Part shown: piece by piece, positions 2,282-18,121 of the stretch
Layout of the letters: each line of letters opens with the position of its first letter
How positions within the stretch are numbered: the first letter of the stretch is position 1
Assembly: GCA_947455595.1 (NCBI GenBank)
Contig: CANGOP010000001.1
Location: forward strand, 1-64,000
Direction of reading: 5' to 3'
From: Gammaproteobacteria bacterium
GTDB taxonomy: Bacteria; Pseudomonadota; Gammaproteobacteria; Steroidobacterales; Steroidobacteraceae
Length of the DNA stretch: 64,000 bases
The notes under the pieces: generated by a model
The model's input: only the letters and a program-made list of their open reading frames with translations
What the model was told of the DNA's origin: nothing
Database searches by the model: none
Translations under genes and position numbers: made by a program

Positions 2282-4432
2282 CTATCGTGTGCCTGCCGGG
2301 ACCGGAAAACCGCGCTTGCGCATCAGCGCCGCAATGCCGGGGTCACGGCCACGAAAGGCACGATAAGCGTCGGCAGGGTCAACGGTATTGCCGACGGACA
2401 GCACCTCTTTGCGCAGTCGGGCCGCCACCGCCGGATCATACGGGCCACCAGCCTCGGTGAACGCTTCCCACGCATCAGCCGACAACGTGTCCGACCAGAG
2501 GTAGCTGTAATAGCCCGCCGAATATCCGTCGCCTGAAAACACGTGACCGAACTGCGGCGTGCGATGACGCATGACGATCTCGTGCGGCATGCCTAACTGA
2601 GCCAACGTATTGCGCTCAAACGCCCGCGGCTCAATCGCACGATCGCCCAGCAAGTGCAGCTTCATATCGATGAGCGCACTCGAGAGGTATTCGACCGTCT
2701 TAAAGCCCTGATTGAAGGTCTCCGCCCGGTGAATCTTCGCGACCAACTCATCTGGAATCGGCTTGCCCGTCTGGTAATGGACGGCGAATCGCTGCAGTAC
2801 TTCTGGCGTCGAGAGCCAGTGCTCCAGAAGCTGCGACGGGAACTCAACGTAATCGCGCGCCACCGACGTGCCCGAGAGTGTGGGATAGGTCACGTTCGAG
2901 TTCAGGCCATGCAGGGCGTGACCAAACTCATGGAACAAAGTCACCGCGTCTTCCCAGCTGATCAGAATCGGCTCGCCAGGCGCGCCTTTCACGAAATTAG
3001 AATTGTTCGAGACAATCGTCTTGATGTCGCCGTCGAACCGCTCTTGTAGTCGATATTCGTTCATCCATGCGCCCGACTGCTTTCCTTCTCGCGCGTAAGG
3101 ATCGAGATACCAAAGGCCAACATGCGCCCCATCGCGCTTGACCTCATAGACCCGAATGTCGGGATGTGCAACCGGTACTAGACCCGCTGGGACTTCGTCA
3201 AAGGTGAAACCGAAGAGTTGTTCCGCAACCCAGAACATTCCCTCGCGGAGTTTTTCCAACTGCAGGTATGGTTTGACCTCATTGGCATCCAGATCATATT
3301 TCTCCCGCCGGACGATTTCAGCGTAATAGCGGTAATCCCATGGCTCGATGCGTATGTGGGGAGTGCCCGATGCATCACTGTCGCGGTCCGCGATCGCCTG
3401 CATGTCGGTCACTTCTTCATGAACTCGGGCGACAGCGGCTGGCCACACCGCTTCCATGAGACCGAGCGCCTTTTCAGGCGTTTTCGCCATGGTCTCTTCG
3501 ACGCGCCAGTGTGCGTGGGTCGGATAGCCGAGTAATTTCGCACGCTCAGCGCGTAGCGCGAGGATGCGAGTGATCGTCGCGTTTGTGTCGTGAGCGTCGC
3601 CGTTATCGCCTCGGTTAACGAACATTCGCCAAACTTTCTCGCGCAGATCTCGGCGGCTCGAATATTCGAGAAAAGGTTCAACGGAAGAGCGAGTGTTGAG
3701 TACCGCGCCTTTCGCGTCCAGCTTTCGAGCGACAGCGGCCGCTCTGAGAGCGTCAGCTGTCGACGCCGGGAGTCCGGCAAAATCAGTATCCGTAGTGAGC
3801 GGAATGAATAGCTCGCCTTCATCGGCTAAAAGAGCTTGGCTGAAGCTCGTGTATAAACTGGCCAATTCTTGATTGATATCCGAGAGTCGAGATTTATCTG
3901 CCGCCTTTAATTTGGCGCCGGCTCGCGTAAAGTCCGTGTAGACAACCCAGGCCAGACGCTTCTGTTCTGCGGAGAGATGTGCTGCCTCACGGTTGTGGTA
4001 AACAGCGGAGATGCGCGCGTACAGTCGGCTGTTTTGGGTGATCGCGTCGCTGTGCGCGGCCAACAGCGGCGACACGTCTCGCTCAACAGCTTGCACGGCG
4101 CCGTCACTCAACGTGGCGGCATAAATTGCAAACAGTGTGTTGACTCGCGCCAGCGCGCGGCCCGAGCGCTCAAGGGCTGCGATGGTGTTCTCAAAGGTCG
4201 GCGCGGAAGATTGGTTGGCGATCGACTCGATTTCAGCCAATTGCTGCTTCATGCCGGCTTCAAGTGCGGGGCGAAAGTCGTCTACCCGAACTTGGTCGAA
4301 GGGAGGCACGCCGCCGTATGGTCCCGTCCACGGGGCGAGCAAAACGGATTCCGCCGGGACATCGGCCGCAACGGCGGGCATGGTTGTAATCAAGCTCATG
4401 AGGCAGTACCCAAACGCAAGAAGACGTGACAT
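2282..4432 (-). CDS. dcp: M3 family metallopeptidase, peptidyl-dipeptidase Dcp, exported
   Basis: A 716-residue zinc peptidase of family M3. The HEFGH motif is at about residues 501-505, with the downstream glutamate ligand in DYVEFPSQ. The C-terminus (FSGDGYSAGYYSYLWSD and the final LMRKRGFPV) looks like Dcp rather than oligopeptidase A. Dcp releases C-terminal dipeptides from oligopeptides. I chose ATG 4430-4432 because it opens a clear signal peptide (MSRLLAFGYCLMSLITTMPAVAA), whereas the longer frame to 4480 adds an unrelated leader. E. coli Dcp is 681 residues and not classically secreted, so the leader points to periplasmic action here. It follows the 2OG-oxygenase gene by 56 bases in the same direction. 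Confidence 0.9.
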   Translation of the reverse strand: MSRLLAFGYCLMSLITTMPAVAADVPAESVLLAPWTGPYGGVPPFDQVRVDDFRPALEAGMKQQLAEIESIANQSSAPTFENTIAALERSGRALARVNTLFAIYAATLSDGAVQAVERDVSPLLAAHSDAITQNSRLYARISAVYHNREAAHLSAEQKRLAWVVYTDFTRAGAKLKAADKSRLSDINQELASLYTSFSQALLADEGELFIPLTTDTDFAGLPASTADALRAAAVARKLDAKGAVLNTRSSVEPFLEYSSRRDLREKVWRMFVNRGDNGDAHDTNATITRILALRAERAKLLGYPTHAHWRVEETMAKTPEKALGLMEAVWPAAVARVHEEVTDMQAIADRDSDASGTPHIRIEPWDYRYYAEIVRREKYDLDANEVKPYLQLEKLREGMFWVAEQLFGFTFDEVPAGLVPVAHPDIRVYEVKRDGAHVGLWYLDPYAREGKQSGAWMNEYRLQERFDGDIKTIVSNNSNFVKGAPGEPILISWEDAVTLFHEFGHALHGLNSNVTYPTLSGTSVARDYVEFPSQLLEHWLSTPEVLQRFAVHYQTGKPIPDELVAKIHRAETFNQGFKTVEYLSSALIDMKLHLLGDRAIEPRAFERNTLAQLGMPHEIVMRHRTPQFGHVFSGDGYSAGYYSYLWSDTLSADAWEAFTEAGGPYDPAVAARLRKEVLSVGNTVDPADAYRAFRGRDPGIAALMRKRGFPVPAGTR

Positions 4433-4488
4433 GGAACATCCATGAAAGGGGAGGGAAGGGGGCAGGATAGCTCTCCGCACCTCATCGG

Positions 4489-5154
4489 TCAGGTGCGGGC
4501 GGCGTCCGGCAGGTTAAACCAGCAGTTGAATGCAATCGTGATTCTTTCGCCGGGGCCTTCGTAAGGTTTGACCTCATGGAGCACCCAGGAAGGAAAAAGC
4601 ACGAGGCGACCTGCCTCCAGTTTGATGTTTCGCATCTGCGAGCCAAAAGGCGGAGGGATGCGCGCATTGCCCGCGTCAAAGTGCATCGCGCTGGTTGTCA
4701 CGGGACCGAGGAAGCTCAGTGTTCCGCTGTCTGGACGGTCTGGATCGTGTTGGCCGGGGTCAACACAATAAACCCCGCTCCAAGATGCATTCGGATGATT
4801 ATGGAGACTGAAGTACCCGCCGCGCCGTGTCACATGCGCCCAAGCGTCGTTAAAAATTTCCAGTCGCTCAAGGGTCTCTAAGGTGTAACCGTTCAGTTGC
4901 CCGATGACGGCGAGCATTCGATCCCAACAGAAGCGCTTCAGTTCCTGGACGGCTGGATTTGGCTGTCTGAACAGATCGAAGTGGGTCTCGAATAGGGCGG
5001 CATTGCGCTGGGTAAGGGGGCGTGGATTACGTGCTCCGAGCGCCTCTTGCTCCAAGAGATAGTTTTTTAATGCCTGATTCAATGGGTCAGGAGCCTCATG
5101 TTGGCTGAAGGCAAACGGGACTGCGAACATCGGGACGATTTCAGGGGCTGACAT
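4489..5154 (-). CDS. TIGR02466-family putative 2OG-Fe(II) oxygenase
   Basis: A 221-residue protein of the 2OG-FeII_Oxy_5 group (TIGR02466). The core reads SLHNHPNASWSGVYCVD, then FPSWVLHEVKPYEG and GERITIAFN, which supply the histidine iron ligands and the arginine for 2-oxoglutarate. Members are presumed hydroxylases of unknown substrate, and the early segment VPMFAVPF is typical of the family. The ATG at 5154 is preferred to 5202 because the extra 16 residues are not family-like. It is divergent from the TPR-hydroxylase gene with 77 bases between starts and is followed by the secreted peptidase. The shared promoter region and second oxygenase suggest a joint role in peptide or protein hydroxylation, which is inference. 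Confidence 0.82.
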   Translation of the reverse strand: MSAPEIVPMFAVPFAFSQHEAPDPLNQALKNYLLEQEALGARNPRPLTQRNAALFETHFDLFRQPNPAVQELKRFCWDRMLAVIGQLNGYTLETLERLEIFNDAWAHVTRRGGYFSLHNHPNASWSGVYCVDPGQHDPDRPDSGTLSFLGPVTTSAMHFDAGNARIPPPFGSQMRNIKLEAGRLVLFPSWVLHEVKPYEGPGERITIAFNCWFNLPDAART

Positions 5155-5231
5155 GAACGCTGCTCCAATTCGAGGTCCTCGCCATTGTAGCGGCCCGCCC
5201 ATCTCCCGGAACCAGCGCTATACTTAATCGC

Positions 5232-6542
5232 ATGAGGAATAAGGCAGATTCATCCGGGTCAGACGCTGAACGTCGGGTTGTCGCGCTCATGGCTGCCTGT
5301 GACCGCGCCCTGTCCGAGCGTCGGGCAGTCGATGCAGAGCAAGCGTTTGGGCAAGCGCAGGCGCTGATGCCCGATCATCCCGCTGTTCACTATGAGCATA
5401 GTCGACGACTTTATGCAGCTGGTAATCCGCACGGCGCTCGGGAGAGACTCGAGAAAGCGGTGGCTTCTGCACCTGGAGAGGCGCGTTATTGGCACGGCCT
5501 TGCCGCTGTACTGAGAGCTCTCGTCCTCAACGAGGAAGAGTTGGCCGCATTGGACGGCGCGCTGAAAGTAGAGCCGCGGGACGCAATTGCCCTTCTGTAC
5601 AAAGGGGCGGTCCTAGATCGGATGGGGAAGCGGCGTACGGCATCGCGAATCTACTCCAATGCCCTGCAGGTGATGGCCTCCGGTCGCCAGCTTCCCCCAG
5701 CGCTGGAGCCGCTGGTTCGAGAGGCGACGCAGCGGGTACAACAAGTTCGTGCTGAGTTTTCTGCTTATGCGGATCGGCGACTAGGCGCGTCTGCATTATC
5801 GAGTGTGGGGCGGCGGGGTAATCGCTTCGTTGATCTCATGATCGGTCGAGCGCGGCACTATCCGCCACGGCCGACCGGCCTTTACTTTCCGAACTTGCAC
5901 AACTACGAGTTTCACGATCGCGATCAGTTTCCTTGGTTGGAGTCGCTGGAAGCTTCGACGAATGCCATTCTTGAAGAGTGCCTTGCAGTCCTTGGCCAAG
6001 ATGCCGAGGGACTTGAGCCTTACGTGGCTTATCGCGATGGACTGCCGCTTGATCAATGGAAAGAGTTGAATAACTCGAGGCGCTGGAGTGCCTATTTCCT
6101 TTGGAAAGAAAGTGCGCGCATTGAAGCGCACCTGGCGCGCTGTCCAAAGACCGAAGCTGCGTTGCAGGCGATACCGCGGGTCGATATCCCTGGTTTTGGG
6201 CCGACAGCGTTTTTCTCAATTCTAGATGCGAAGACACGGATCCCACCTCACCATGGTGTGACCAACACTCGACTGACCGTGCATCTCCCACTGGTCATAC
6301 CGCCAGGCTGCTATTTTCGAGTCGGCAATGACACGCGACCGTGGAAGGCGGGTGAGGGTTGGGTGTTTGACGACTCGATCGAGCACGAAGCTTGGAATGA
6401 TTCGGACGTGCCGCGCGCTATTTTGATTTTTGATGTCTGGAATCCAGAGCTGTCAGTCGGCGAACGGGATATGGTGCGTGAGGCCACGTTGACGTTTGCA
6501 GAATTCTTCGATGTCGAGGGTATGGAGGGTTTGGGTCTATGA
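5232..6542 (+). CDS. TPR protein fused to an aspartyl/asparaginyl beta-hydroxylase domain
   Basis: A 436-residue protein. Residues 15-150 are helical TPR-type repeats. Residues 230-405 are an AspH-type domain (pfam05118). Key residues are H341 and G342 in HHGVTNTRL, which match the HxG centre that replaces HxD in this family, H385 in IEHEAW, and R395 with DVWNPEL closing the domain. AspH enzymes hydroxylate Asp or Asn in protein substrates using 2-oxoglutarate, and the TPR part is expected to bind the protein partner. No signal peptide, so cytoplasmic. The stop overlaps the next start as ATGA (6539-6542), so the small exported protein is translationally coupled to it. Confidence 0.85.
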   Translation: MRNKADSSGSDAERRVVALMAACDRALSERRAVDAEQAFGQAQALMPDHPAVHYEHSRRLYAAGNPHGARERLEKAVASAPGEARYWHGLAAVLRALVLNEEELAALDGALKVEPRDAIALLYKGAVLDRMGKRRTASRIYSNALQVMASGRQLPPALEPLVREATQRVQQVRAEFSAYADRRLGASALSSVGRRGNRFVDLMIGRARHYPPRPTGLYFPNLHNYEFHDRDQFPWLESLEASTNAILEECLAVLGQDAEGLEPYVAYRDGLPLDQWKELNNSRRWSAYFLWKESARIEAHLARCPKTEAALQAIPRVDIPGFGPTAFFSILDAKTRIPPHHGVTNTRLTVHLPLVIPPGCYFRVGNDTRPWKAGEGWVFDDSIEHEAWNDSDVPRAILIFDVWNPELSVGERDMVREATLTFAEFFDVEGMEGLGL

Positions 6543-7045
6543 CGAACCAAAAAGTGTGCATGGCTTTGGTCTGGCTGGGCGTTGCCCTCCTACCGGTAAC
6601 AGATGGCTTAGCAGGAGCCCCGTCGCGCCTAGAGGGTCTATTGGCCTGCCGCAGCATTCCGGAAGCCGGTGCGCGACTGGAATGCTTCGACCGGGAGTCG
6701 GCCTCGCTGGCCGTTGCGCCACTGGCTGCCAGTCCCGCTCCTGCAATGCCGCCCGAAAAAGCCTTTGGCTTGCCGCCATTGGCCGTGGCCGAGGCACAGG
6801 CCTCCCGAATCGAACAGCCGGCCAGCATTGACAGTTTGACTGGTCGCGTGGTCGGTCTATCGTTAGGAGAAAATGGTCGCGTCGTGGTCACGCTCGACAA
6901 TGGGCAGGTCTGGCGACAACTGATGGCTGGTGAGGATCTGAACCTGAAACTCGGCGATACCGTGCGACTGTCGCGCGGTATCGTCGGATCTTATTTTATG
7001 AAGGTTCCCTCTGGCCGCACCTGTAAGGTCAATCGTCTGCGCTAA
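6539..7045 (+). CDS. Small exported protein of unknown function
   Basis: A 168-residue protein that I do not recognise. Residues 1-25 form a signal peptide ending near GLAGA. Next comes ACRSIPEAGARLECFDR, a two-cysteine motif seen in many small exported proteobacterial proteins. A Pro/Ala-rich linker follows, then a C-terminal beta-rich domain (about 95-168) with GRVVVTLDNGQVWRQL and VRLSRGIVGSYFMKV, which reads like a small beta barrel. A last cysteine is in GRTCKVNRLR. The ATGA overlap with the TPR-hydroxylase gene suggests the two products are needed together. Periplasmic location is likely, and the role is unknown. Confidence 0.75.
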   Translation: MTNQKVCMALVWLGVALLPVTDGLAGAPSRLEGLLACRSIPEAGARLECFDRESASLAVAPLAASPAPAMPPEKAFGLPPLAVAEAQASRIEQPASIDSLTGRVVGLSLGENGRVVVTLDNGQVWRQLMAGEDLNLKLGDTVRLSRGIVGSYFMKVPSGRTCKVNRLR

Positions 7046-7054
7046 GGCGCAGAA

Positions 7055-8626
7055 TCAACTGACATCTATACCTGCGGCTTCAAAGAGCCGCCGTGCTGGG
7101 TCGAGGTCCGCCGAGTAATGACGCCACTCTTCCAGCGAGGATGAGTACAGAGGTTGTCTGACCTGCACCGAGCTCGCCGTCGTACTGGCGGTCGGGTTCT
7201 TGTGGAACTCGAGGCATGCTGGCTCAAAGTCGAGCCCACAATAATCCAGCAATTTGCGGGTCGTGTTTTCTTGATCGAGAACGACAGATTCATACGCGAC
7301 ATCAAGGATTCGACCCGGCAATAGGGTGTGCCAGTGGGCCATCAGCTGGCGATACCCAATGATGAAGTTTGCAATCTCCGTAATGTCGTACGAAAACGGA
7401 TAGGTGCGACGGAACCGCGTCTTGTAGATCGCGTAGGTGGCGGCCATCGGATGACGGGTCAAATGGATGATTCGAGCTTGCGGAAATGCCCTGAAGATCA
7501 CGCCACAATAAAAAAAGTTGGTGGGCTGTTTGTCGCTAAAACGCGCTTTGTTGCCGCGCCATGCGCGCGACTCGGCGAGATAGCCTTGGGCCACGTCGGC
7601 ACCGGAGACTTGGCCCAATGTTTGCGAGAAGCTGACCCAGTCGAGGTCTTCGATCGGGCGGACGCGATTGACGGCATTGCCAACCGCAGCGGACAGCGCT
7701 GCCAGTTCTCCGGCTGAGTGCACCGCGGAATGTGACCCGATGATCCGCTCGACAAGGGTCGTACCCGTGCGGGGTAGTCCCAGGATAAAGATGGGGCGTT
7801 CGCCGCTGGTGTCCTCACTCAAGGGCTGAGTCGCCGAAAAACTTTCCTGAATAGCGGCAAATATTTGGCGATCCTGCTCCGGGTCGTAGCGCAGCTGTGC
7901 ACGTTGCAGATTATTGCCGGCATTAAGATGGCGCCAGCTTGTCGGGTGGTCGCCCGAATCGTGATAGGCCTTAGCGAGCGCGAAGTGCAGGGCGATACGT
8001 TGCTCGACGTCTCCCTGCGCCGCAAGCGCTGCTTCCATATCGGAGATAGGCGCTTTGCCCGTGCTGAGCAAGCGCAATTCGCCCCGCGACTTTAAAGCTT
8101 CAGCATCCCCCGGGTTGGCCGCCAAGATCGCGTCATAGTCGGCTTCCGCCCGATCGAAGTCTCCGAGGTACCGCAACACCATCGCACGGCGGGCGAGATA
8201 TCGTCGCTCCTGAGGGGCCACGGCCACGGCCCGATCAAACATGCGAAGCGCCAGTTCATGCTCGCTGGCATGGACGAGGAAGGTGCCTGCGGCGTCGAGA
8301 GCGGCCGGTATGTCGCCAACGCGAGTCACGGCAGTCTGGGTGGCCTCAACGGCCTCACTGCGTCGTCCAAGGGCGAGCAAGGCTTCTGCGCGCTGAAGGC
8401 CACACTGGAAATCATTTGGGTCTATGACGAGTCCGGCTTCGGCAAGCCTTAGCGCCTCTTCTTTTTCATTTGCCGACAGCGCCGCGAAGCTACCCAACAA
8501 CCAACCCACCGGGTTGGAGGGATGCGTCTCCCTGCATTGCTGGGCGGTCCGTGCGGCCGCTTGCCAGTTGCCTGCGGTCATCTCTTCGCCTGCCCGGCGT
8601 TGGAAATCGACGATTGATAGCGTCAT
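7055..8626 (-). CDS. TPR-containing sulfotransferase family protein (copy 1)
   Basis: A 523-residue protein with TPR repeats over about residues 1-235 and a sulfotransferase domain from about 277 on. The PAPS 5'-phosphosulfate loop is GLPRTGTTLVERI (PRTGTT at 285-290), and the 3'-phosphate motif is HLTRHPMAATYAIYK near residue 390. The fold resembles tyrosylprotein sulfotransferases, so a protein or peptide acceptor bound by the TPRs is plausible. The frame runs open to 8821, but ATG 8624-8626 is chosen because it begins the TPR region and follows GAGAGTGAG. The gene ends 10 bases from the stop of the convergent secreted protein and is divergent from the TonB-dependent receptor. Confidence 0.88.
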   Translation of the reverse strand: MTLSIVDFQRRAGEEMTAGNWQAAARTAQQCRETHPSNPVGWLLGSFAALSANEKEEALRLAEAGLVIDPNDFQCGLQRAEALLALGRRSEAVEATQTAVTRVGDIPAALDAAGTFLVHASEHELALRMFDRAVAVAPQERRYLARRAMVLRYLGDFDRAEADYDAILAANPGDAEALKSRGELRLLSTGKAPISDMEAALAAQGDVEQRIALHFALAKAYHDSGDHPTSWRHLNAGNNLQRAQLRYDPEQDRQIFAAIQESFSATQPLSEDTSGERPIFILGLPRTGTTLVERIIGSHSAVHSAGELAALSAAVGNAVNRVRPIEDLDWVSFSQTLGQVSGADVAQGYLAESRAWRGNKARFSDKQPTNFFYCGVIFRAFPQARIIHLTRHPMAATYAIYKTRFRRTYPFSYDITEIANFIIGYRQLMAHWHTLLPGRILDVAYESVVLDQENTTRKLLDYCGLDFEPACLEFHKNPTASTTASSVQVRQPLYSSSLEEWRHYSADLDPARRLFEAAGIDVS

Positions 8627-9167
8627 GCACTCACTCTCTAAACTCGAAAAGTCCTCCGGCCGTCGCGGGAACGGAGCGCCGGGGCCACCGTAGATGGTGA
8701 TCGGATGCCGCTCCGGCGTAAAGCGGGAACATTTATATTCTATTGTATCTTTTTCGCAACGCTGGTCGGGGCGCACCAAAACGGCAACTTCAAGCCTGCA
8801 GCTTGATCTTGTTTCCCACAATATAACCGATATTGCGCATTTATCGGCTAGAAAGCCCCACCTTTATCCAAAATCCATCAAAATTCATGGGTCTCCTTCC
8901 CAATAGGCTCGCGCTGCCATCGCTGCTAATTGCCGCCTATTTATTGATTTTTTGTGAATCGTTGCGTTAAGGTGCAATCAGAGGAGTGCTAAAGCGCTAC
9001 GGAAGTCTGTTGGATTTTGTCATCACCCAGAGTGTTTCTGGACGTTGGCGCATCCATGGAGGGCTGTTAGTTGGCATGGCGCTTCACTAGATTTTGATCC
9101 AAGGGACCGGCGCGTTTGCTTTTGTAGAAGCGCGACAATGCTTAAAAAAAACTGAGGGCAGTTACTC
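8627..9167. other. 541-base divergent intergenic region before the TonB-dependent receptor
   Basis: An AT-rich region (especially 8730-8960) between two divergent genes. It carries a 6-bp inverted repeat, CCGATA (8827-8832) and TATCGG (8842-8847), with nine bases between, a possible operator. The receptor start is preceded by GAGGGCAG at 9151-9158. I find no Fur-like palindrome, no convincing small gene and no confident -35/-10 pair. Confidence 0.4.
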
Positions 9168-12100
9168 ATGTCTAATCATCGCAATCACCAGTTGCATTCG
9201 GCTGTGCGCTTTGCGCTCGCCGCAGGCGCCGCTGCCGCCGCATCCGGTGCGGCACAAGCTGCAGAAACGGCAAATTCGGCCGTGCTTGAAGAAATCGTCG
9301 TTACGGGCTCGCGCATCGCGGCGCCGAACGAAGTGTCGATCAGCCCCGTCATCGCGGTGTCCGCGGCGGACATCGAGCAGCGTGGCATCACACGCATCGA
9401 AGACCTTCTTACCCAGTTGCCGCAGGTGTATGCCTCGCAGAACTCGGCCGTTTCGAACGGCTCAGACGGCACGGCAACGGTGAGCTTGCGTGGCCTGGGC
9501 GCGAATCGCACCCTCGTTCTCGTCAACGGCCGTCGCTTGGGTCCTGGCGACCCGGGCACGAGCGCGTCTGACCTTAACCAGATTCCGAGCGAACTCGTTG
9601 AGCGCGTCGAAGTGCTCACCGGTGGCGCATCGTCCGTTTATGGCGCCGACGCCGTTGCCGGCGTTGTGAACTTCAAGCTCAACAATCACTTCGAGGGCTT
9701 CAAGGTCACGACCAGCTACGGTCTGTACGACCATAAGCAGCATGACCCGATGGGCGTGCAGGAAGTGCTCTCGGACTTCAACTCGAACTACAACCAGAGC
9801 TTCGCGGCAGCCCCGTCCAGTGTCCACACGGGCTTCACGAAAGACATCTCGGCGATGTTTGGCTTCAATACCGCCGACGGTAAGGGTAACGTCACGACGT
9901 ACGCGAGCTACCGTAATGTCGCTGGCGTTCTGCAGTCGAAGTACGATTACAGCGCCGCGACGCTCGGTTCGGGCTATTGCTGCAGCAGCAGCTACGACGG
10001 CCGATTCTCGGTGTCTGGCTCCTCGACCTCTTATCCGGGTCGCGTCCGGCTCGTAAACGATCACGGCGTTAACCTGCCGAGCTCGCAAGGTGGTGGTAGC
10101 AAGGTCCTTCTTCCGAAGGCTGATGGCTCGGGCCTCCTGAGCTTCGGAAACGCAAACCGTTATAACTACGGCCCGCTGAACTATTACATGCGTCCTGACG
10201 AGCGTTACTCGGCGGGTGCATTTGCTCACTATGAATTCAACGAGCACGCAGACGTTTACACTGAAATTCAGTACGTAAACGACCACACGCTGGCGCAGAT
10301 CGCGCCGTCGGGTGCGTTCTACGGCACCGGCCCTTACAAGACCAATTGCGCCAATCCCCTCCTCACTCAGGCTGAAATCAATCAGTGGCAGTGCGGTGAT
10401 GGTGAAGGCGGCGTCAATGCTGCGAAGGACCTCTACCTGTTGCTCGGCCGACGCAACGTGGAAGGCGGTCCTCGTATCGACGACCTGACCCACTCGTCGT
10501 GGCGTTATGTGCTTGGCACGAAGGGCAAGATTGATTCGGTTTGGGATTACGACGCGTATTACTCGAACGCGATCACCGAGCTGAGCGAGACTTACCTGAA
10601 CGATCTGTCCATCTCGCGTATGAAGAACGCGCTGGATGTGGTCACCGATCCGACCACCGGCGCGGCGGTCTGCCGTTCGGTGATCACCGGTACTGACAAG
10701 AACTGCGTGCCGTACAATATCTGGTCGCCAGGTGGTGTGACGAAGCAGGCGTTGGCCTATATCTCGACGCCGCTCGTCTCCATCGGTAAGACGACCCAGC
10801 AGGAAGTTTCCGTGAACGTCACGGGTGACCTCGGCAAGTACGGCGTCAAGGTGCCGAGTGCCGCTTCTGGCCTTAAGGTCAATATCGGTGCTGAATGGCG
10901 TGAAGTGACCTCGGAATTCAAGCCGGATCTCGAGTACCAGCTCGGTGATGCGGCAGGCGGCGGTTCCCCGATTCTGCCGGTCAGTGGTGCGGTGATTTCT
11001 CGCGAAGCTTTCGTCGAAGCGCGCTTGCCGTTGATTGACGACAAGCCGTTCGCGAAGTCAGTTGCGTTGGAAGGCGGGTTCCGCTACTCCGACTACTCGA
11101 TTGGCTTCCAGACCAACAGCTTCAAGTTGGGTCTCGAGTGGCAGCCGGTCAACGACATCCGCGTTCGCGGTAGCTTTGCGCGCGCTGTGCGTGCGCCGAA
11201 CATCGTCGAGTTGTACGCCGTGCAGCACGTCGGGCTTGATGGCTCGAGTGATCCTTGCGCAACCAATGGCAGCTACACTTTGGAGCAGTGCATTAAGTTG
11301 GGCGTTACGCCTGATCAGTACGGCACCATCGATCCGAACCCAGCGGCGCAGTACAACGGCTACTATGGCGGTAACCCGAACCTGAAGCCGGAAACGGCGA
11401 CGACGAAGACCTTCGGCGTGGGCTTCACCCCTTCGTTCCTGCCCGGGTTCCGTGCGCAGGTTGACTACTACGACATCAAGATCAACGACACGATCAGCAA
11501 CATCGGCCCAAGCACGATCATGAGCTTGTGCGCCAACAAGGATCTTTTCTGTGACTTGATCCACCGTGACGTGAACGGTTCGCTCTGGGTGTCGAACGAC
11601 GGCTATGTTATTGACCCGCTGGGCAACAATGGCTCGCTGCAGACGAAGGGCTTCGACGTCGAGTTGTCGTACACGTTCGATCTGGGTCGCGCTGGTAAGG
11701 TCCGTACCGGCCTCGTCGGTACAAAGTCCACGGCCTTCATCGCGATCCCGCTCACCTCGCAGCCGGACAGCGGTTACGATTGCGTTGGATACTACGGCAA
11801 CAGCTGTGGCGATCCGAAGCCGAAGTGGCGTCATACGATGAACGCGACGTGGATGACCCCGTGGCATGGCACGGACATCACGTTGAGCTGGCGTTACTTC
11901 GGTAAGGTCGACGTGGACGGCCTGAATCCGAACCCGAACGTCAGCGTCGACGGCACGACCAATCCCGCCGCGTGCGAGTTCGCGCCAGGTCTTGCTTGCG
12001 TATCGAACACCGATGCGCATATCAAGGCTTGGAGCTACTTGGACCTGTCGGGTTCGATCCAGGTCAACGACCGCGTCACGTTCCGCGTTGGCATCAACAA

Positions 12101-12227
12101 CGTCCTCGACAAGGATCCGCCGATCATTGGTGCTTCCAACATCGGCGGCGGCAACGGCAACACCTTCCCGTCCATGTACGACGCCCTCGGTCGCTACGTG
12201 TTCGGTCAGGTCTCGGTGCAGTTCTAA
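9168..12227 (+). CDS. TonB-dependent outer-membrane receptor with seven cysteine pairs
   Basis: A 1019-residue receptor. A signal peptide ends near residue 30 (SGAAQAAE). The TonB-box region is EEIVVTGSRI at about 41-50. The plug follows, with RIEDLLTQLPQV, VSLRGLGANRTLVLVNGRR and VEVLTGGASSVYGADAVAGVVN, then a beta barrel that ends in the terminal Phe of QVSVQF, the usual BAM signal. The mature protein has exactly 14 cysteines, in seven neighbouring pairs (for example YCC, CANKDLFC, CVGYYGNSC, CEFAPGLAC), all in loop-like Gly/Asn-rich segments, so external disulfides are likely. Such receptors import scarce substrates with TonB energy. The substrate is unknown. The flanking sulfotransferases and oxygenases suggest a peptide ligand or modified receptor. 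Confidence 0.93.
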   Translation: MSNHRNHQLHSAVRFALAAGAAAAASGAAQAAETANSAVLEEIVVTGSRIAAPNEVSISPVIAVSAADIEQRGITRIEDLLTQLPQVYASQNSAVSNGSDGTATVSLRGLGANRTLVLVNGRRLGPGDPGTSASDLNQIPSELVERVEVLTGGASSVYGADAVAGVVNFKLNNHFEGFKVTTSYGLYDHKQHDPMGVQEVLSDFNSNYNQSFAAAPSSVHTGFTKDISAMFGFNTADGKGNVTTYASYRNVAGVLQSKYDYSAATLGSGYCCSSSYDGRFSVSGSSTSYPGRVRLVNDHGVNLPSSQGGGSKVLLPKADGSGLLSFGNANRYNYGPLNYYMRPDERYSAGAFAHYEFNEHADVYTEIQYVNDHTLAQIAPSGAFYGTGPYKTNCANPLLTQAEINQWQCGDGEGGVNAAKDLYLLLGRRNVEGGPRIDDLTHSSWRYVLGTKGKIDSVWDYDAYYSNAITELSETYLNDLSISRMKNALDVVTDPTTGAAVCRSVITGTDKNCVPYNIWSPGGVTKQALAYISTPLVSIGKTTQQEVSVNVTGDLGKYGVKVPSAASGLKVNIGAEWREVTSEFKPDLEYQLGDAAGGGSPILPVSGAVISREAFVEARLPLIDDKPFAKSVALEGGFRYSDYSIGFQTNSFKLGLEWQPVNDIRVRGSFARAVRAPNIVELYAVQHVGLDGSSDPCATNGSYTLEQCIKLGVTPDQYGTIDPNPAAQYNGYYGGNPNLKPETATTKTFGVGFTPSFLPGFRAQVDYYDIKINDTISNIGPSTIMSLCANKDLFCDLIHRDVNGSLWVSNDGYVIDPLGNNGSLQTKGFDVELSYTFDLGRAGKVRTGLVGTKSTAFIAIPLTSQPDSGYDCVGYYGNSCGDPKPKWRHTMNATWMTPWHGTDITLSWRYFGKVDVDGLNPNPNVSVDGTTNPAACEFAPGLACVSNTDAHIKAWSYLDLSGSIQVNDRVTFRVGINNVLDKDPPIIGASNIGGGNGNTFPSMYDALGRYVFGQVSVQF

Positions 12228-12252
12228 GAACTTAGGTTCTTTGAGCGATGAG

Positions 12253-12284
12253 AACGGCGGGCTTAGGCCCGCCGTTTTCTTTTG
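12253..12284 (+). terminator. Intrinsic terminator after the TonB-dependent receptor
   Basis: A perfect 10-bp GC-rich stem (AACGGCGGGC at 12253-12262, paired with 12267-12276) with a TTAG loop is followed by TTCTTTT. It lies 26 bases after the receptor stop. It should end most receptor transcripts, so the downstream sulfotransferase may depend on read-through or its own promoter. Confidence 0.85.
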
Positions 12285-12311
12285 TGAGGTGGAGAAGCGT
12301 AGAGTTTGACG

Positions 12312-13925
12312 ATGTGGAACGAGAATGAGCGTAACGAGATCCGGCGTATCCATGACATGGCTGCGCGAGGGCATCTGCCCGAGGCCATAGCGGCCGCGGG
12401 TGCCGCGCTACTTGCTGGAACAGAGCATCCCGTGCTCTTGAATCTCGCGGCGCTAGCGCGCGAACAGGCGGGCCAACTTGATGAGGCGCTCGTGCTTCTG
12501 GATCGGGCGTTGCAATTGATGCCCCAGGACGTAGCGTGTCTAAACGCTAAAGGCCTACTGCTGTTACGCATGGAGCGGGCGGCCGATGCGCTAAGCTGCT
12601 TCGATCGAGTTGTCGCGATTTCGCCAGAGATTCCTTTCGGGCATGTTAATCGCGGTAATGCGATGGTGATGCTCGGAGAGATGTCGAAGGCTGAAGCTTT
12701 TTTTCGTGATGCATTAGCGCGTGACTCAGCTCATCCCTTGGCGTTAGCCGGTCTTGCATCGGTTGCCAGTGCCCGCGGCGATCATGATCGCGCTCGAACT
12801 GCGGCACTTGCCGCGCTTAATGCGCGTGCGGGTATCGCTGATGCTGTACTCGCGCTGGCGGCGGCTGATCTGGCAGAGAACCAAGTCGAAGAGGCGCAGG
12901 CGAGAGTGCAGCGCTTTTTGGCTCAACCGAATGTGACACAGTTGGATCGTGCGCGCGGCCTCGTGTTACTCGGAGATGTGTTTGATGCGAAGGGCGACCA
13001 TAGGCGCGCGTTTGCCGAGTATGTCTCGGCCAATAATGTGTTCCATGAGATCTACGCGCCCCGATTTAGTATTGATCTAGGGGCCGCCGATTATGCGCGT
13101 CGCCTCATTAAGACTCTGGATTCCACGACGCCGAGCACATGGGCGCAGCGCAGACCGGACCGTCACGCTGTTGGGCATGTTTTTTTGATCGGATTTCCAC
13201 GATCGGGAACCACTCTGCTTGAGCTGATTCTTGATGGAAGCGCTCAAATTTCGAGCTTGGAAGAAAAGGAATCTCTGATTGAGGGAATTCGGGCATTTAT
13301 GCGAGATCCCGATGACTTGAGTCGACTCATTCATGCGAGTGAAGAAGAGCTTGAGCGCTATCGCGACGCCTACTGGGATGCGGTGATGGCGGAAGGTGTC
13401 TCACTTGCCGGAAAGATATTTGTAGATAAATATCCGCTGAATACGCTGAAGCTTCCGCTGATTGCGCGATTGTTCCCGGATGCGAAAATTATCTTCGCAG
13501 TGCGCGATCCACGAGATGTCGTCCTGAGTTGTTTTCGGCGCCAATTCAAGATGAGTGCGCCGATGTATGAAATGCTGACGATTGAAGACACGGCTGCTTA
13601 TTACAATGCGGTCATGCATCTCGCAGACCGTTGCTTGAAGCTCATGGGTATGACCGCATTAGAGGTGCGCCATGAGGATCTCATCGCAAATTTTCAGCCC
13701 CAGATGGATGCGGTCTGCCGGTACTTGGGGTTGCAGTGGACCAGCGTGATGGCGGATTTTGCGGAGCGCGCTAAAACACGCCCGCAGGCGACACCCAGTA
13801 CGGCCCAGCTCGCGAGGGGGTTGGATCGCAGAACCGTGCAGCATTGGCGCCACTATGAGACCGAAATGAAGCCGGTGCTGTCCACGCTATCACTTTGGGT
13901 CGAGCGGTTCGGCTACGACAAGTAA
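12312..13925 (+). CDS. TPR-containing sulfotransferase family protein (copy 2)
   Basis: A 537-residue protein with several TPR units over residues 1-240 and a sulfotransferase domain from about 290. The PAPS loop is FLIGFPRSGTTLLELIL (PRSGTT near 296), and the second motif is FAVRDPRDVVLSCFRRQF near 395. The PRSGTTLLE form and the catalytic-type glutamates (SLEEKES) resemble tyrosylprotein-sulfotransferase-like enzymes. It is clearly different in sequence from copy 1 on the other side of the receptor. The ATG at 12312 is chosen. An in-frame TTG at 12306 is better spaced from AGGTGGAG (12287-12294), so translation could begin there. It starts 84 bases after the receptor gene. Confidence 0.87.
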   Translation: MWNENERNEIRRIHDMAARGHLPEAIAAAGAALLAGTEHPVLLNLAALAREQAGQLDEALVLLDRALQLMPQDVACLNAKGLLLLRMERAADALSCFDRVVAISPEIPFGHVNRGNAMVMLGEMSKAEAFFRDALARDSAHPLALAGLASVASARGDHDRARTAALAALNARAGIADAVLALAAADLAENQVEEAQARVQRFLAQPNVTQLDRARGLVLLGDVFDAKGDHRRAFAEYVSANNVFHEIYAPRFSIDLGAADYARRLIKTLDSTTPSTWAQRRPDRHAVGHVFLIGFPRSGTTLLELILDGSAQISSLEEKESLIEGIRAFMRDPDDLSRLIHASEEELERYRDAYWDAVMAEGVSLAGKIFVDKYPLNTLKLPLIARLFPDAKIIFAVRDPRDVVLSCFRRQFKMSAPMYEMLTIEDTAAYYNAVMHLADRCLKLMGMTALEVRHEDLIANFQPQMDAVCRYLGLQWTSVMADFAERAKTRPQATPSTAQLARGLDRRTVQHWRHYETEMKPVLSTLSLWVERFGYDK

Positions 13926-14497: not shown

Positions 14498-16696
14498 TCA
14501 GCGTGCAGTCGTCGCCGTGTTCGACTTGCCGGAGTCGGCTGGCGTGAGCACGAGCACACCGAGTGGCGGCAGGCGAACGGTGGCGGAATAGGGTTCGCCC
14601 ATCGCCGGATCAGCAGAAGCTGTGACACCCCCTAGGTTGCCCACGTCTGTGCCGCCATAAAATTTCGAGTCGGTATTGAGGATCTCAATCCATGTTCCTG
14701 CCAAGGGCAGTCCGATGACGTGTCGCTCACGGGGAACCGGTGTCGCGTTCAGAATGATGACCAGGCGCTCTGTCGTGGTGCGTCTTTCGTACACGTAAAT
14801 CGAGCGCAGGTCGTCTTGTTCGGACAGAAAGCGCAGATTGTCCCCCTGCAGGTCATCGCCCTGCAGGGCATCGGACTCCCGGTAGAGTTGATTTAGGTCA
14901 GAGATCAGCTTTTCCAGCCCACGGACGGACGGGTCGTTGCGGCGTTCCCATGGCAAGCATGTCTGATGATCCCACTCATGGGGAGACGCCATCTCGGCGC
15001 CCATGAACAGCAGCTTGGCGCCCGGATGCGTCCACTGCCAGGCTAGGAGTAGACGCAGGTTCGCAAAACGCTGCCAGTCGTCCCCAGGCATTTTGCCGAA
15101 CAGGGAGCGCTTGCCGTGGACAACTTCGTCATGGCTGAGCGCGAGGACACCACGGTCTCGACGCGAGTACCGGCCAATGCGGGGCAGCGCGGCGTGGTGA
15201 TGTCGACGGAACAGGGGGTCCTCGCGGAAGTAGCGCAGTGAATCGTGCATCCAGCCGAGGTTCCACTTGTAGTCAAACCCGAGCCCGCCACGGCTGACTG
15301 CTTCGGTCACCCCCGGATAGAGCGAGGAGTCCTCTGCGATGAGGATCACCCCCGGGAATTCATCATGCAACGTCGCGGTCAGTTCTTTCAGGAAGGCAAT
15401 CGCGGCGAGATTTTCGGCTCCGCCCTGCGCATTCGGCACCCACTCCCCCTCACCGCGGTCGTAGTCCAGATAGAGCATCGCGGCGACCGCGTCGAACCGT
15501 AATCCGTCGACCTGGAAATCTCGTAGAAAACGCCGTGCGCTCGACAGTAGAAATGCGCGCACCATGGGGTTCTTCAGATCAAAGACCAGCGTGCCCCAGC
15601 CCTCATGACGACCCATACCGGGGTCGGCCTCCTCAAAAAGTGGTGCACCGTCGAATGCCGCGAGCGCGACGTCGTCTGAGGCGAAATGTCCCGGGACCCA
15701 ATCCAGAATGACCCCGAGACCTGCCCGATGGAGTCGATCGACGAAAGCGCGGAAGTCGTCCGCGGAGCCGTGACGGTTCGTGGGCGCATGGTACCCCGTC
15801 GTCTGATAGCCCCATGAACCCTCAAAGGGATGTTCGGTGATCGGCAGCAGTTCAACATGGGTAAATCGCATGGGGCCGACGTGGCGAACAATCCGTTCGG
15901 CCAAGGCCGCGTAGGTCGCTGATTCGGCAGGTCTGCGTAGAAATGAGCCGAGGTGCACTTCATAAATGCTCAGCGGATCGGTGGGGAGACGGCGACGGCG
16001 CTGGGCGAGCCAGTCCGAATCCTCGAATGGGTACTCTGAGACCGCGGGTATTCGCGCGCGCCAGCCCGGCCTTGGCTCGAATGCTCGGCCGCACGGGTCG
16101 GTGTGCCAAGCCCGACGCCCATCGGCGAGCACGACGTCAAAACCGTAAGGTGTCCCGGGTTCCGAACTGGGCAAAAATAAAGACCAGACGCCGGCGCTTG
16201 GGTGCGGATGCAGCGCAAGGGCGCCACCGGGCAGGGTCAGGAATACGCCGCGAGCGCGCGGCGCCCAGACGGCGAAGCGGGTGCCCATCACGCCTTGCCT
16301 TTCGAGCGGCTCAGCCCCTAAACAATCGGCCGCCTGCGGATCGGCGCTCCCTAAGGCCGCAACTTCTTCTGCGCTGAGCCCCGGACCAAACTGATACGGG
16401 TCGATCCGTTGCCGGCGGACACCAAAGCGGTCAGTCCAGTGGACGCGGTAATAGGTCGGTAAGGTCGAACGCTCGCCGAGCCACGCGTAGAGCGAGGACA
16501 CGCCGCAATGCTGCATCCGGCGTCGGCCCTCCAGGCTGACCTCCGTGGCGCCGTCACCGATATACGTCAGGATGAGCGCCTGCCGGCCCAGGTTGTGGAC
16601 GCCCAGTAACTGACTGACCAACGCGCCGTTCCCTTGGGCGAGGGCTTCGATTTCGGGGAGCCATCGTTGTAGTGCTTTTTGTAGCGCTGCGGTCAT
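14498..16696 (-). CDS. glgB: 1,4-alpha-glucan branching enzyme
   Basis: A 732-residue GH13 enzyme, the usual GlgB length. An N-terminal region (1-120), a CBM48-like module (about 140-220), the catalytic barrel and a C-terminal beta domain are present in order. Catalytic residues are D402 in GLRFDAV, E455 in LIAEDSS and D523 in ALSHDEVVHGK. GlgB cuts alpha-1,4 chains and reattaches them by alpha-1,6 links during glycogen synthesis in the cytoplasm. It is divergent from glgC, with only 61 bases between start codons, so the two likely share a regulatory region. The DUF192 gene follows nine bases after its stop. Confidence 0.97.
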   Translation of the reverse strand: MTAALQKALQRWLPEIEALAQGNGALVSQLLGVHNLGRQALILTYIGDGATEVSLEGRRRMQHCGVSSLYAWLGERSTLPTYYRVHWTDRFGVRRQRIDPYQFGPGLSAEEVAALGSADPQAADCLGAEPLERQGVMGTRFAVWAPRARGVFLTLPGGALALHPHPSAGVWSLFLPSSEPGTPYGFDVVLADGRRAWHTDPCGRAFEPRPGWRARIPAVSEYPFEDSDWLAQRRRRLPTDPLSIYEVHLGSFLRRPAESATYAALAERIVRHVGPMRFTHVELLPITEHPFEGSWGYQTTGYHAPTNRHGSADDFRAFVDRLHRAGLGVILDWVPGHFASDDVALAAFDGAPLFEEADPGMGRHEGWGTLVFDLKNPMVRAFLLSSARRFLRDFQVDGLRFDAVAAMLYLDYDRGEGEWVPNAQGGAENLAAIAFLKELTATLHDEFPGVILIAEDSSLYPGVTEAVSRGGLGFDYKWNLGWMHDSLRYFREDPLFRRHHHAALPRIGRYSRRDRGVLALSHDEVVHGKRSLFGKMPGDDWQRFANLRLLLAWQWTHPGAKLLFMGAEMASPHEWDHQTCLPWERRNDPSVRGLEKLISDLNQLYRESDALQGDDLQGDNLRFLSEQDDLRSIYVYERRTTTERLVIILNATPVPRERHVIGLPLAGTWIEILNTDSKFYGGTDVGNLGGVTASADPAMGEPYSATVRLPPLGVLVLTPADSGKSNTATTAR

Positions 16697-16757
16697 GTGG
16701 CCTTGGCTTGCAGGGGTCTAAGGGCAAGGTAACATAGGCAAAAAGGAAGGGCCCCGG

Positions 16758-18032
16758 ATGACCGAGCGTACGCCAACCACGACTTCTGGACGATATGTCT
16801 CTCGCCTGACCAGCGGAACATTGGCGATCATCATGGCGGGAGGTCGCGGGGAGCGGTTGAAGCAGTTGACGGTCAGTCGCGCCAAACCGGCAACACCGTT
16901 CGGTGGCAAGTTCCGCATCATTGATTTCGTCCTCTCGAATTGCGTGAATTCCGGCATCCGTCAGATCGCCGTGCTGACCCAATACAAAGGCCAGTCGCTG
17001 ATAGAGCACGTTCAGCGCGGCTGGGGCTATCTGCGTGGCGAGTTCGGCGAATTCGTGAGCGTGATTCCAGCCCAGCAACAGATCGGGCCGCATTGGTATC
17101 AAGGCACCGCGGATGCGGTCTATCAAAATCTTGAGTTCATTCGATCGCACTCGCCGAAGTACGTGTTGATCTTGGCCGGTGATCACATCTACACCATGGA
17201 CTACGGTCCGATGATCGCCGCCCATGTCGAGAAGAATGCCGATGTCTCGATAGGCGTTGTCGAGGTGCCGAAGAGCCTGGCTCGTGAATACGGCGTGCTG
17301 TCGGTCGATACGACCAATCGGGTGATTCGCTTCAATGAAAAGCCCAAGGAGCCTGAGACCGTGCCGGGTCGACCTGACATCGCGCTCGCTTCAATGGGCA
17401 TCTATATTTTCAATGCGGATCTGCTCGATAGCATGCTGACGAATGACGCAGCACAGCTGGATTCAGCTCACGACTTTGGTAAGAACATCATCCCGATCGC
17501 GCTCGAGAGTCGCGCTGTTTACGCATACGCATTTCAGGACGTGCGCACAAAAGCGCAGGCCTACTGGCGCGATGTCGGAACATTGGACGCTTACTACGAA
17601 GCCAACATGGAATTGGTCCATGTGCGCCCTGAGTTAAACATTTACGATGACGAATGGCCGATCTGGACGTATCAACTGCAGCGTCCTCCGGCTAAGTTCA
17701 TTTTGGATGACCCGTCAACCGGTCGCGTCGGTTCGGCGCTCAACTCGATGGTTTCGGCGGGCTGCATCATTTCCGGCGCGAGTGTTCGCTCATCGCTGCT
17801 GTTCTCGGATGTTCGGGTCGAAGAATGCTCGGTCGTTGAGCAATCTGTCCTGTTGCCGCGGGTCTCGATCGGTCGCGGTTGCGTGATCCGGCGCGCGATT
17901 CTCGATGAAGGCTGTATCGTTCCCGATGATATGCAGATCGGAGTAGACGCCTACACCGATGCGAGTCGTTTTGAGGTCACCGAGAAAGGGGTAGTGCTGG
18001 TCACTGCCCAGATGCTGCAAGCGCTGGTCTGA
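16758..18032 (+). CDS. glgC: Glucose-1-phosphate adenylyltransferase
   Basis: A 424-residue ADP-glucose pyrophosphorylase. The nucleotide-binding signature GGRGERLKQLT is at 28-38, followed by KPATPFGGKFRIIDFVLSNC. The glucose-1-phosphate region includes FNEKPKEP and ASMGIYIF. A left-handed beta-helix end domain carries GSALNSMVSAGCIISG and VEQSVLLPRVSIGRGC. GlgC makes ADP-glucose from ATP and glucose-1-phosphate, the committed step of bacterial glycogen synthesis, and is normally allosterically controlled. The start follows AGGAAGG. malQ lies 89 bases downstream in the same direction. Confidence 0.97.
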   Translation: MTERTPTTTSGRYVSRLTSGTLAIIMAGGRGERLKQLTVSRAKPATPFGGKFRIIDFVLSNCVNSGIRQIAVLTQYKGQSLIEHVQRGWGYLRGEFGEFVSVIPAQQQIGPHWYQGTADAVYQNLEFIRSHSPKYVLILAGDHIYTMDYGPMIAAHVEKNADVSIGVVEVPKSLAREYGVLSVDTTNRVIRFNEKPKEPETVPGRPDIALASMGIYIFNADLLDSMLTNDAAQLDSAHDFGKNIIPIALESRAVYAYAFQDVRTKAQAYWRDVGTLDAYYEANMELVHVRPELNIYDDEWPIWTYQLQRPPAKFILDDPSTGRVGSALNSMVSAGCIISGASVRSSLLFSDVRVEECSVVEQSVLLPRVSIGRGCVIRRAILDEGCIVPDDMQIGVDAYTDASRFEVTEKGVVLVTAQMLQALV

Positions 18033-18121
18033 AGCCGAACGGGCGCCTCTATCGGTAGCGATATCGCTGTTATCCCGATGGATGGATCCTGCGCCGAGTA
18101 CGAAGAGTTGAGGAAGTGTGA

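Follow-up and report, generated by a model that had tools for sequence, protein, structure and literature searches.

Methanobactin operons encode a TonB transporter and, in some, the sulfotransferase MbnS, a PF00685 protein, as described in the excerpted text of PMC3621798. We analysed a bacterial gene block that likewise places sulfotransferases beside a TonB-dependent receptor. It lies at positions 2282-13925 of a 64,000-nucleotide stretch (hereafter the window; GenBank assembly GCA_947455595.1, contig CANGOP010000001.1, positions 1 to 64,000, forward strand) from a Gammaproteobacteria bacterium of the family Steroidobacteraceae. It further encodes two 2-oxoglutarate (2OG) oxygenases, a small exported protein and a peptidase. 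One oxygenase belongs to the 2OG-FeII_Oxy_5 family (Oxy_5); the other fuses an aspartyl/asparaginyl beta-hydroxylase (AspH) to tetratricopeptide repeats (TPRs). In contrast to the methanobactin operons (MbnT, MbnS, MbnE), the window sulfotransferases best match PF13469, related loci show no conserved precursor peptide, and an MbnB-family gene was seen in one of them. Some related loci encode an OppA-like binding protein, which we take to resemble MbnE.

Other described systems share parts of the block. Tyrosylprotein sulfotransferases (TPST1/2 and a tick TPST) have the fold that uses 3'-phosphoadenosine 5'-phosphosulfate (PAPS) and an aligned Arg/Glu/Lys/Ser constellation in common with the window sulfotransferases. 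The window enzymes differ in being bacterial, in their long N-terminal TPR arm, in lying beside TonB receptors and in having, as judged by eye, neither signal peptide nor membrane anchor. RaxST of Xanthomonas can be counted with the TPSTs among the closest known systems. Human AspH resembles the window fusion in joining TPRs to an oxygenase head with HxG...H iron-site motifs; the window fusion differs in its predicted cytosolic location, outside any oxidising compartment, and in being embedded in receptor loci. PiuC-PiuA type pairs presumably place a 2OG PKHD hydroxylase beside a TonB receptor. Here, too, a 2OG oxygenase neighbours such a receptor, and a 221-aa 2OG-FeII_Oxy_3 family stands in nine related loci. 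The window block differs from these pairs in its oxygenase families and in its sulfotransferases, and we know of no PiuC-PiuA type pair that includes a sulfotransferase. A literature search, with most subscription papers and bioRxiv preprints outside its reach, returned no description of this gene grouping among the matches listed.

We show that the linkage of these genes is secure. The block is best read, tentatively and somewhat short of an even chance, as a gene-rich example of a modular receptor-modification neighbourhood that is widespread and whose enzymes act on an exported polypeptide, the likeliest being the receptor.

Linkage to TonB-dependent receptors

The block is more than a chance cluster. 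A profile search of the contigs of its own genome (3.04 Mb, 60 contigs, 88% complete) gave six Sulfotransfer_3 matches and 34 TonB-receptor plug matches. All six sulfotransferases lie 410-3,601 bp from a plug, although 8.0% of the genome is within 3.6 kb of one. Four further sites have a receptor directly beside a TPR-sulfotransferase, without AspH, Oxy_5 or small protein. Receptor plus TPR-sulfotransferase is the smallest recurring unit in this genome. Its single AspH gene and its single small-protein gene are both inside the block. Two of the five PF13759 oxygenases adjoin other receptors and one is in the block; of the remaining two, one has a plug at 3.5 kb and the other, at 10.9 kb, is not receptor-linked. 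The genome also encodes an adenosine 5'-phosphosulfate (APS) kinase within a CysNC-like gene, and the cell is therefore able to make PAPS.

Other receptors of this genome have notable company of their own. On contig C22 (record L184, 6564-13824), CysD- and CysNC-like genes lead into a transporter-like gene, after which come genes for a TonB receptor and an Oxy_5 oxygenase; this CysNC-like gene holds the genome's only full APS kinase match, and the names given here rest on family matches for APS kinase, plug and PF13759 and were otherwise assigned by eye. On C1 (95588-101508; L186 5589-11509), three consecutive genes encode a TPR-2OG-FeII_Oxy_5 protein, a TonB receptor and a protein that matches tryptophan halogenase (PF04820) strongly. 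Another strongly matching tryptophan halogenase (C4:84508) is near a receptor plug (C4:88313), and a third is on C28, a contig without a plug match. On C8 (L013 10108-10902), a HalD-matching protein of a 2OG halogenase family (PF23169) directly adjoins a TonB receptor. Placing modification-type enzymes next to receptors may thus extend beyond the block in this genome.

The neighbourhood recurs in other genomes. A single scan with the TPR-AspH protein yielded 453 matches, of which the best 80 were taken; these loci include near relatives, 12 without an assigned class and many on short contigs. Their titles include Steroidobacter, Nevskia, Lysobacteraceae, Woeseiaceae, Massilia, Duganella, Paucibacter, Nitrospirillum, Caulobacteraceae, Sphingomonas and Hyphomonadaceae. 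Loci were labelled on six-frame translations with domain models from window and own-genome proteins, full-length seeds being confounded by shared TPRs. A TonB receptor was found in 57 of the 80 loci, Oxy_5 in 32, the small exported protein in 39 and a sulfotransferase in 32, this last model also detecting sulfotransferases without an evident TPR arm. Own-genome densities would give 16.8 receptors, 2.7 Oxy_5, 0.6 small proteins and 3.3 sulfotransferases per 80 loci. The full five-member set (AspH, receptor, sulfotransferase, Oxy_5 and small protein) occurs in 16/80 loci, including the near-identical strain L016 (KR1_bin-0782), in which the entire block is present. The co-occurrence that the sequence-only reading expected of a real system is thus found beyond the species, in alpha- and gammaproteobacteria. 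The genome of Caulobacter vibrioides, used as a control, matches PF13469, PF13759 and PF13640 and gave no AspH match.

Membership differs between bacterial classes. For receptor, sulfotransferase, Oxy_5, small protein and all five, respectively, the counts were 20, 12, 13, 18 and 8 in 23 gammaproteobacterial loci; 15, 11, 10, 10 and 3 in 28 alphaproteobacterial loci; 13, 0, 0, 1 and 0 in 17 betaproteobacterial loci; and 9, 9, 9, 10 and 5 in the 12 class-unassigned loci. Among class-assigned loci, full sets are an alpha- and gammaproteobacterial feature, since the 17 betaproteobacterial loci, typically receptor plus AspH, have no sulfotransferase or Oxy_5. These counts come from a six-frame recount of calls made with a simple open reading frame (ORF) scorer. 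Compared with those calls, Oxy_5 went up from 28 to 32 loci, the small protein went up from 28 to 39 and AspH went from 78 to all 80, with the receptor (57), the sulfotransferase (32) and the Dcp-like peptidase (2) unchanged. The recount thereby firmed up the links of the small protein and of Oxy_5 and restricted the full set to two classes.

Linkage falls with distance from AspH. In 78 loci, on the less complete ORF-scorer calls, the frequency per gene place dropped between the nearest neighbour and places seven or more genes away from 19.0% to 2.0% for the receptor, from 12.4% to 1.5% for the sulfotransferase, from 5.9% to 0 for Oxy_5 and from 12.4% to 0.5% for the small protein. Opp-type peptide import genes are a further recurrent neighbour, as are Sel1/2OG proteins, an exported protease of retropepsin-like type and a second type of sulfotransferase. 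Both of two checked Oxy_5 relatives carry TPRs. The Dcp-like peptidase, which the sequence-only reading had counted in the block as a "secreted dipeptidase", is ruled out as a core member by its presence in 2/80 loci; Dcp is, moreover, a peptidyl-dipeptidase rather than a dipeptidase.

The small protein and AspH are associated across genomes. Of 150 genomes of the family, 80 have AspH and 82 the small protein; both occur in 61, where chance would give 43.7 (Fisher p 1.4e-8, uncorrected for relatedness). The two lie within 3 kb of each other in 48 of these 61. From the side of the small protein, 57 of its 113 matches in this survey are within 3 kb of AspH and 45 within 200 bp. In 21 genomes the small protein was found without AspH at 1e-20, and from 16 of them we sampled 20 small-protein loci. 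These have a receptor in 12 cases, Oxy_5 in 9, a sulfotransferase in 5 and AspH in none. The hydroxylase of the module thus looks swappable, since in the absence of a detected AspH the small protein and receptor are often accompanied by Oxy_5. On a tree of 77 receptors, neighbour labels (again from the ORF scorer) change 7 times for AspH, 14 for Oxy_5, 11 for the sulfotransferase and 14 for the small protein.

The receptor link is confined to certain sulfotransferase subfamilies. TPR-sulfotransferases were detected at 1e-40 in 67/150 genomes of a phylum sample. Taking the best match per genus in 36 of 37 other genera, nine lie directly beside a receptor and one two genes off; three of four further matches from already sampled genera adjoin a receptor. 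Adjacency clusters on a tree of 99 sulfotransferases, where the receptor label changes 15 times against 30.5 for shuffles (0/500 as low). In the clade of sulfotransferase 1 (n=13), 12 adjoin a receptor and one is near one. The separate, deep clade of sulfotransferase 2 (n=26) has nine adjoining a receptor, five near one, seven without and five at contig edges.

The module's steadiest piece is its TonB-dependent receptor, large at ~1000 aa and in many cases accompanied by a small, barrel-like exported protein. Its variable pieces join a helical-repeat arm (TPR, elsewhere Sel1) to a head that is a TPST-like sulfotransferase, an AspH-type hydroxylase or another 2OG oxygenase.

Enzymes and candidate substrates

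Sulfotransferase 1 comes closest to TPSTs by modelled fold. The model of sulfotransferase 1 has a predicted local distance difference test score (pLDDT) of 92.4. Among solved sulfotransferases, Foldseek ranks tick and human TPSTs first (8w5z, E 9.8e-8; 3ap1, 5.3e-7), ahead of polyketide and mycobacterial enzymes (4gox, 3.7e-6; 4gbm, 4.2e-6). The N-terminal arm resembles the TPRs of OGT and SPINDLY in structure comparison. Residues R318, E339, K398 and S517, numbered on the 555-aa modelled stretch (window:7058-8722, minus strand), are invariant in 46 sequences and align with TPST residues. Their counterparts are presumably R78, E99, K158 and S285 of TPST2, with catalytic roles. The Glu is also found in CurM, so the set is not exclusive to TPSTs.

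The AspH head retains the catalytic motifs of its family. It aligns with human AspH, its closest solved relative found, at 1.4e-27, and keeps the HxG and second-His iron-site motifs. The window protein carries all three motifs, comprising the two-His iron site and the 2OG-binding Arg. Across 93 homologues, HxGxxNxRL is present in 75, the second-His motif in 91 and RxxLxxDxWxP in 74. No signal peptide was seen by eye in the TPR-AspH protein. According to the excerpted text of PMC6817910, the TPR part of human AspH is required for substrate hydroxylation.

We favour, on balance, an exported polypeptide as substrate, and most simply the receptor, because receptor plus sulfotransferase is the minimal unit, there is no conserved short precursor, and repeat arms occur on several catalytic types. 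The enzymes are likely to modify a polypeptide, and our best guess is that this polypeptide is the receptor. In the cytosol, the repeat arm would hold an unfolded polypeptide ahead of export while the catalytic heads would add sulfate and hydroxyl groups to particular side chains. The modified polypeptide, which is most likely the receptor and less likely the small protein, would then be exported, and its altered loops might affect ligand binding or surface recognition. The earlier proposal that the block may hydroxylate and sulfate a peptide or protein gains from fold and domain make-up; no residue in the receptor is singled out.

On raw counts, one receptor feature goes with some of the neighbouring enzymes. 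The window receptor has a Cys-bounded CxNPxL loop, CANPLLTQAEINQWQC, and this loop or a close variant is found in 38/77 receptors. Oxy_5 lies within five genes of 24/38 loop-bearing receptors against 5/39 others, and a sulfotransferase within five genes of 25/38 against 7/39. The loop is reminiscent of the CxD/N site of human AspH as given in the excerpt of PMC9293771.

Several observations count against the receptor-modification reading or limit it; the residue-level comparisons among them speak neither for nor against the receptor as target. AspH shows the opposite direction, lying within five genes of 28/38 loop-bearing and 37/39 other receptors in a sampling that favours AspH loci. The association of loop and Oxy_5 is not tree-independent, and independent pairs are too few for any enzyme. 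Next to sulfotransferases, the proportion of Tyr that stands in acidic context rises little more than the same proportion for control residues: with versus without a sulfotransferase, it is 0.022 vs 0.017 in the own genome (Phe 0.022 vs 0.026, Leu 0.029 vs 0.020) and 0.028 vs 0.015 in the AspH set (Phe 0.035 vs 0.025, Leu 0.028 vs 0.019). In the phylum sample it is 0.091, a value without a matched control. A DY[ST][DN]Y motif occurs in receptors both with and without a neighbouring sulfotransferase. Human AspH is inactive on reduced, linear epidermal growth factor domains, as reported in the excerpted PMC9293771, and the cytosol is reducing. Polyketide sulfotransferases (CurM, OLS) are about as near as TPSTs by sequence, so the TPST likeness favours a peptide substrate without proving it. 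Receptors are also missing from 23/80 AspH loci, from 8/20 AspH-free small-protein loci (none of these eight has Oxy_5 or a sulfotransferase) and from the stretch around the TPR-sulfotransferase in 26/36 genera, some contigs in each sample being short. The analysis shows linkage; a modified product is predicted.

Among the alternatives, the enzymes might sulfate and hydroxylate a ligand, either a peptide or a small metabolite, that the receptor imports or re-imports, in the manner of methanobactin operons, which bring together a TonB transporter, a sulfotransferase and a peptide precursor. Opp-type peptide importer genes follow receptor, AspH and small protein in five loci (L044, L062, L069, L072 and L074), a hint of peptide uptake by the receptor, and a profile check identifies the L062 binding protein as SBP_bac_5. 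Several loci have proteases. One locus (L030, 2925-4071) carries an MbnB/TglH/ChrH-family enzyme (PF05114) and an 83-aa Cys-rich repeat exported peptide near its receptor-sulfotransferase-AspH-small-protein block; we take these two to resemble a bufferin-type pair for a ribosomally synthesised and post-translationally modified peptide. We nevertheless consider a ligand substrate unlikely, though it fares best of the alternatives. No conserved short precursor family was found among 913 short ORFs outside called genes in up to 89 loci. The MbnB-family gene was noticed in that one locus only, no systematic search having been made. The minimal unit in the own genome has no shared precursor, and the repeat arms found across several kinds of enzyme point to long polypeptides as substrates.

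The short ORFs did form clusters. Among the 15 largest, the two largest are low-complexity look-alikes and the majority of the rest come from Massilia-type intergenic DNA in closely related genomes. A three-locus cluster (L021, L023 and L040) was read as the antisense strand of small-protein genes that the ORF scorer had passed over, which prompted the six-frame recount.

The 168-aa exported protein could itself be the substrate, hydroxylated by the AspH of the overlapping gene and then bound or handled by the receptor, a possibility raised in the sequence-only reading. Its gene start overlaps the AspH stop in the window, and it fills at least 19/153 nearest-neighbour places of AspH, in keeping with the 45 of 113 matches within 200 bp. 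We regard this as improbable. The invariant or near-invariant residues are mostly structural-looking (Cys, Gly, Trp, Phe, Leu and Arg) with a single Asp, D51, and the protein persists where AspH is undetected, though then often beside Oxy_5. Its model (mean pLDDT 83.6, predicted template modelling score 0.53) combines a two-Cys helical hairpin with six strands, and a PDB fold search with it gave no match at E <= 0.001. With this two-part fold conserved and confidently modelled, the protein gives the impression of a functional partner in the periplasm rather than of a substrate alone.

It is similarly improbable that the enzymes share just regulation or gene-transfer history with the receptors and act on unrelated envelope molecules (lipids or polysaccharides): no modified product is known and the AspH head has weak NCBIfam similarity to the lipid hydroxylases OlsC and LpxO, but this falls far below cut-offs, human AspH is the closest solved relative found, and tight linkage recurs in several sulfotransferase clades and bacterial classes.

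Gene content of the block

The earlier gene calls were borne out for the block at 2282-13925, with domains identified by Pfam and NCBIfam profiles; export signals and signal peptides were assigned by eye, without a predictor.

Genes of the receptor-centred block, with coordinates in the window
Feature	Coordinates	Strand	Evidence and remarks
Exported M3 metallopeptidase, Dcp-like	2282..4480	-	PF01432 1.7e-112; neighbour, probably outside conserved module
2OG-FeII_Oxy_5 oxygenase, TIGR02466-like	4489..5202	-	PF13759 8.4e-20; apparently swappable hydroxylase of the module
TPR-aspartyl/asparaginyl beta-hydroxylase fusion (Asp_Arg_Hydrox)	5232..6542	+	PF05118 1.9e-41
168-aa exported protein, two-Cys helical hairpin + six-stranded beta region	6539..7045	+	Model
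TPR-sulfotransferase 1 (Sulfotransfer_3)	7055..8626	-	PF13469 8.3e-43; open frame reaches 8821
TonB-dependent outer-membrane receptor, 1019 aa, plug + barrel	9168..12227	+	PF07715, PF00593
TPR-sulfotransferase 2 (Sulfotransfer_3)	12306..13925	+	PF13469 4.7e-34

Sulfotransferase 2 begins 78 bp past the end of the receptor gene, on the same strand. The 168-aa protein has no match in Pfam and NCBIfam profile comparison. The Oxy_5 oxygenase had been labelled TIGR02466; its score for that NCBIfam model, 56 bits, is below the curated cut-off of 62.5, and the wider family holds, at 71.5 for Pfam PF13759 against that model's cut-off of 27. Sulfotransferase 1 probably starts at the ATG at 8626, because residues 1-20 and 24-31 of the 555-aa modelled stretch, which lie upstream of it, are modelled with pLDDT < 50.

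Upstream of the block, the window encodes an exo-beta-N-acetylmuramidase NamZ family protein (614-2020). Downstream, beyond a DUF192 protein, stand glgB-, glgC- and malQ-like genes (14498-19579; named by eye from translations).

Implications for receptor biology

To our knowledge, sulfation and hydroxylation are not usually counted among the modifications of outer-membrane receptors. A broader and more doubtful extension of the receptor-modification reading is that many Gram-negative bacteria sulfate and hydroxylate their own TonB receptors in the cytosol, before export, by means of interchangeable repeat-armed enzymes whose genes lie next to each receptor, which would amount to a combinatorial chemical code. 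Such a code may serve ligand choice, or escape from phages and bacteriocins. The tryptophan halogenases and the 2OG halogenase-like gene beside other receptors of this genome could reflect the same practice. If receptors are modified in this way, an overlooked layer of outer-membrane chemistry would matter for the choice of nutrients, for sensitivity to phages and bacteriocins and for the uptake of antibiotics. Should a ligand prove to be the substrate, the linkage would still offer a genetic way into the large TPR-sulfotransferase and TPR-AspH families.

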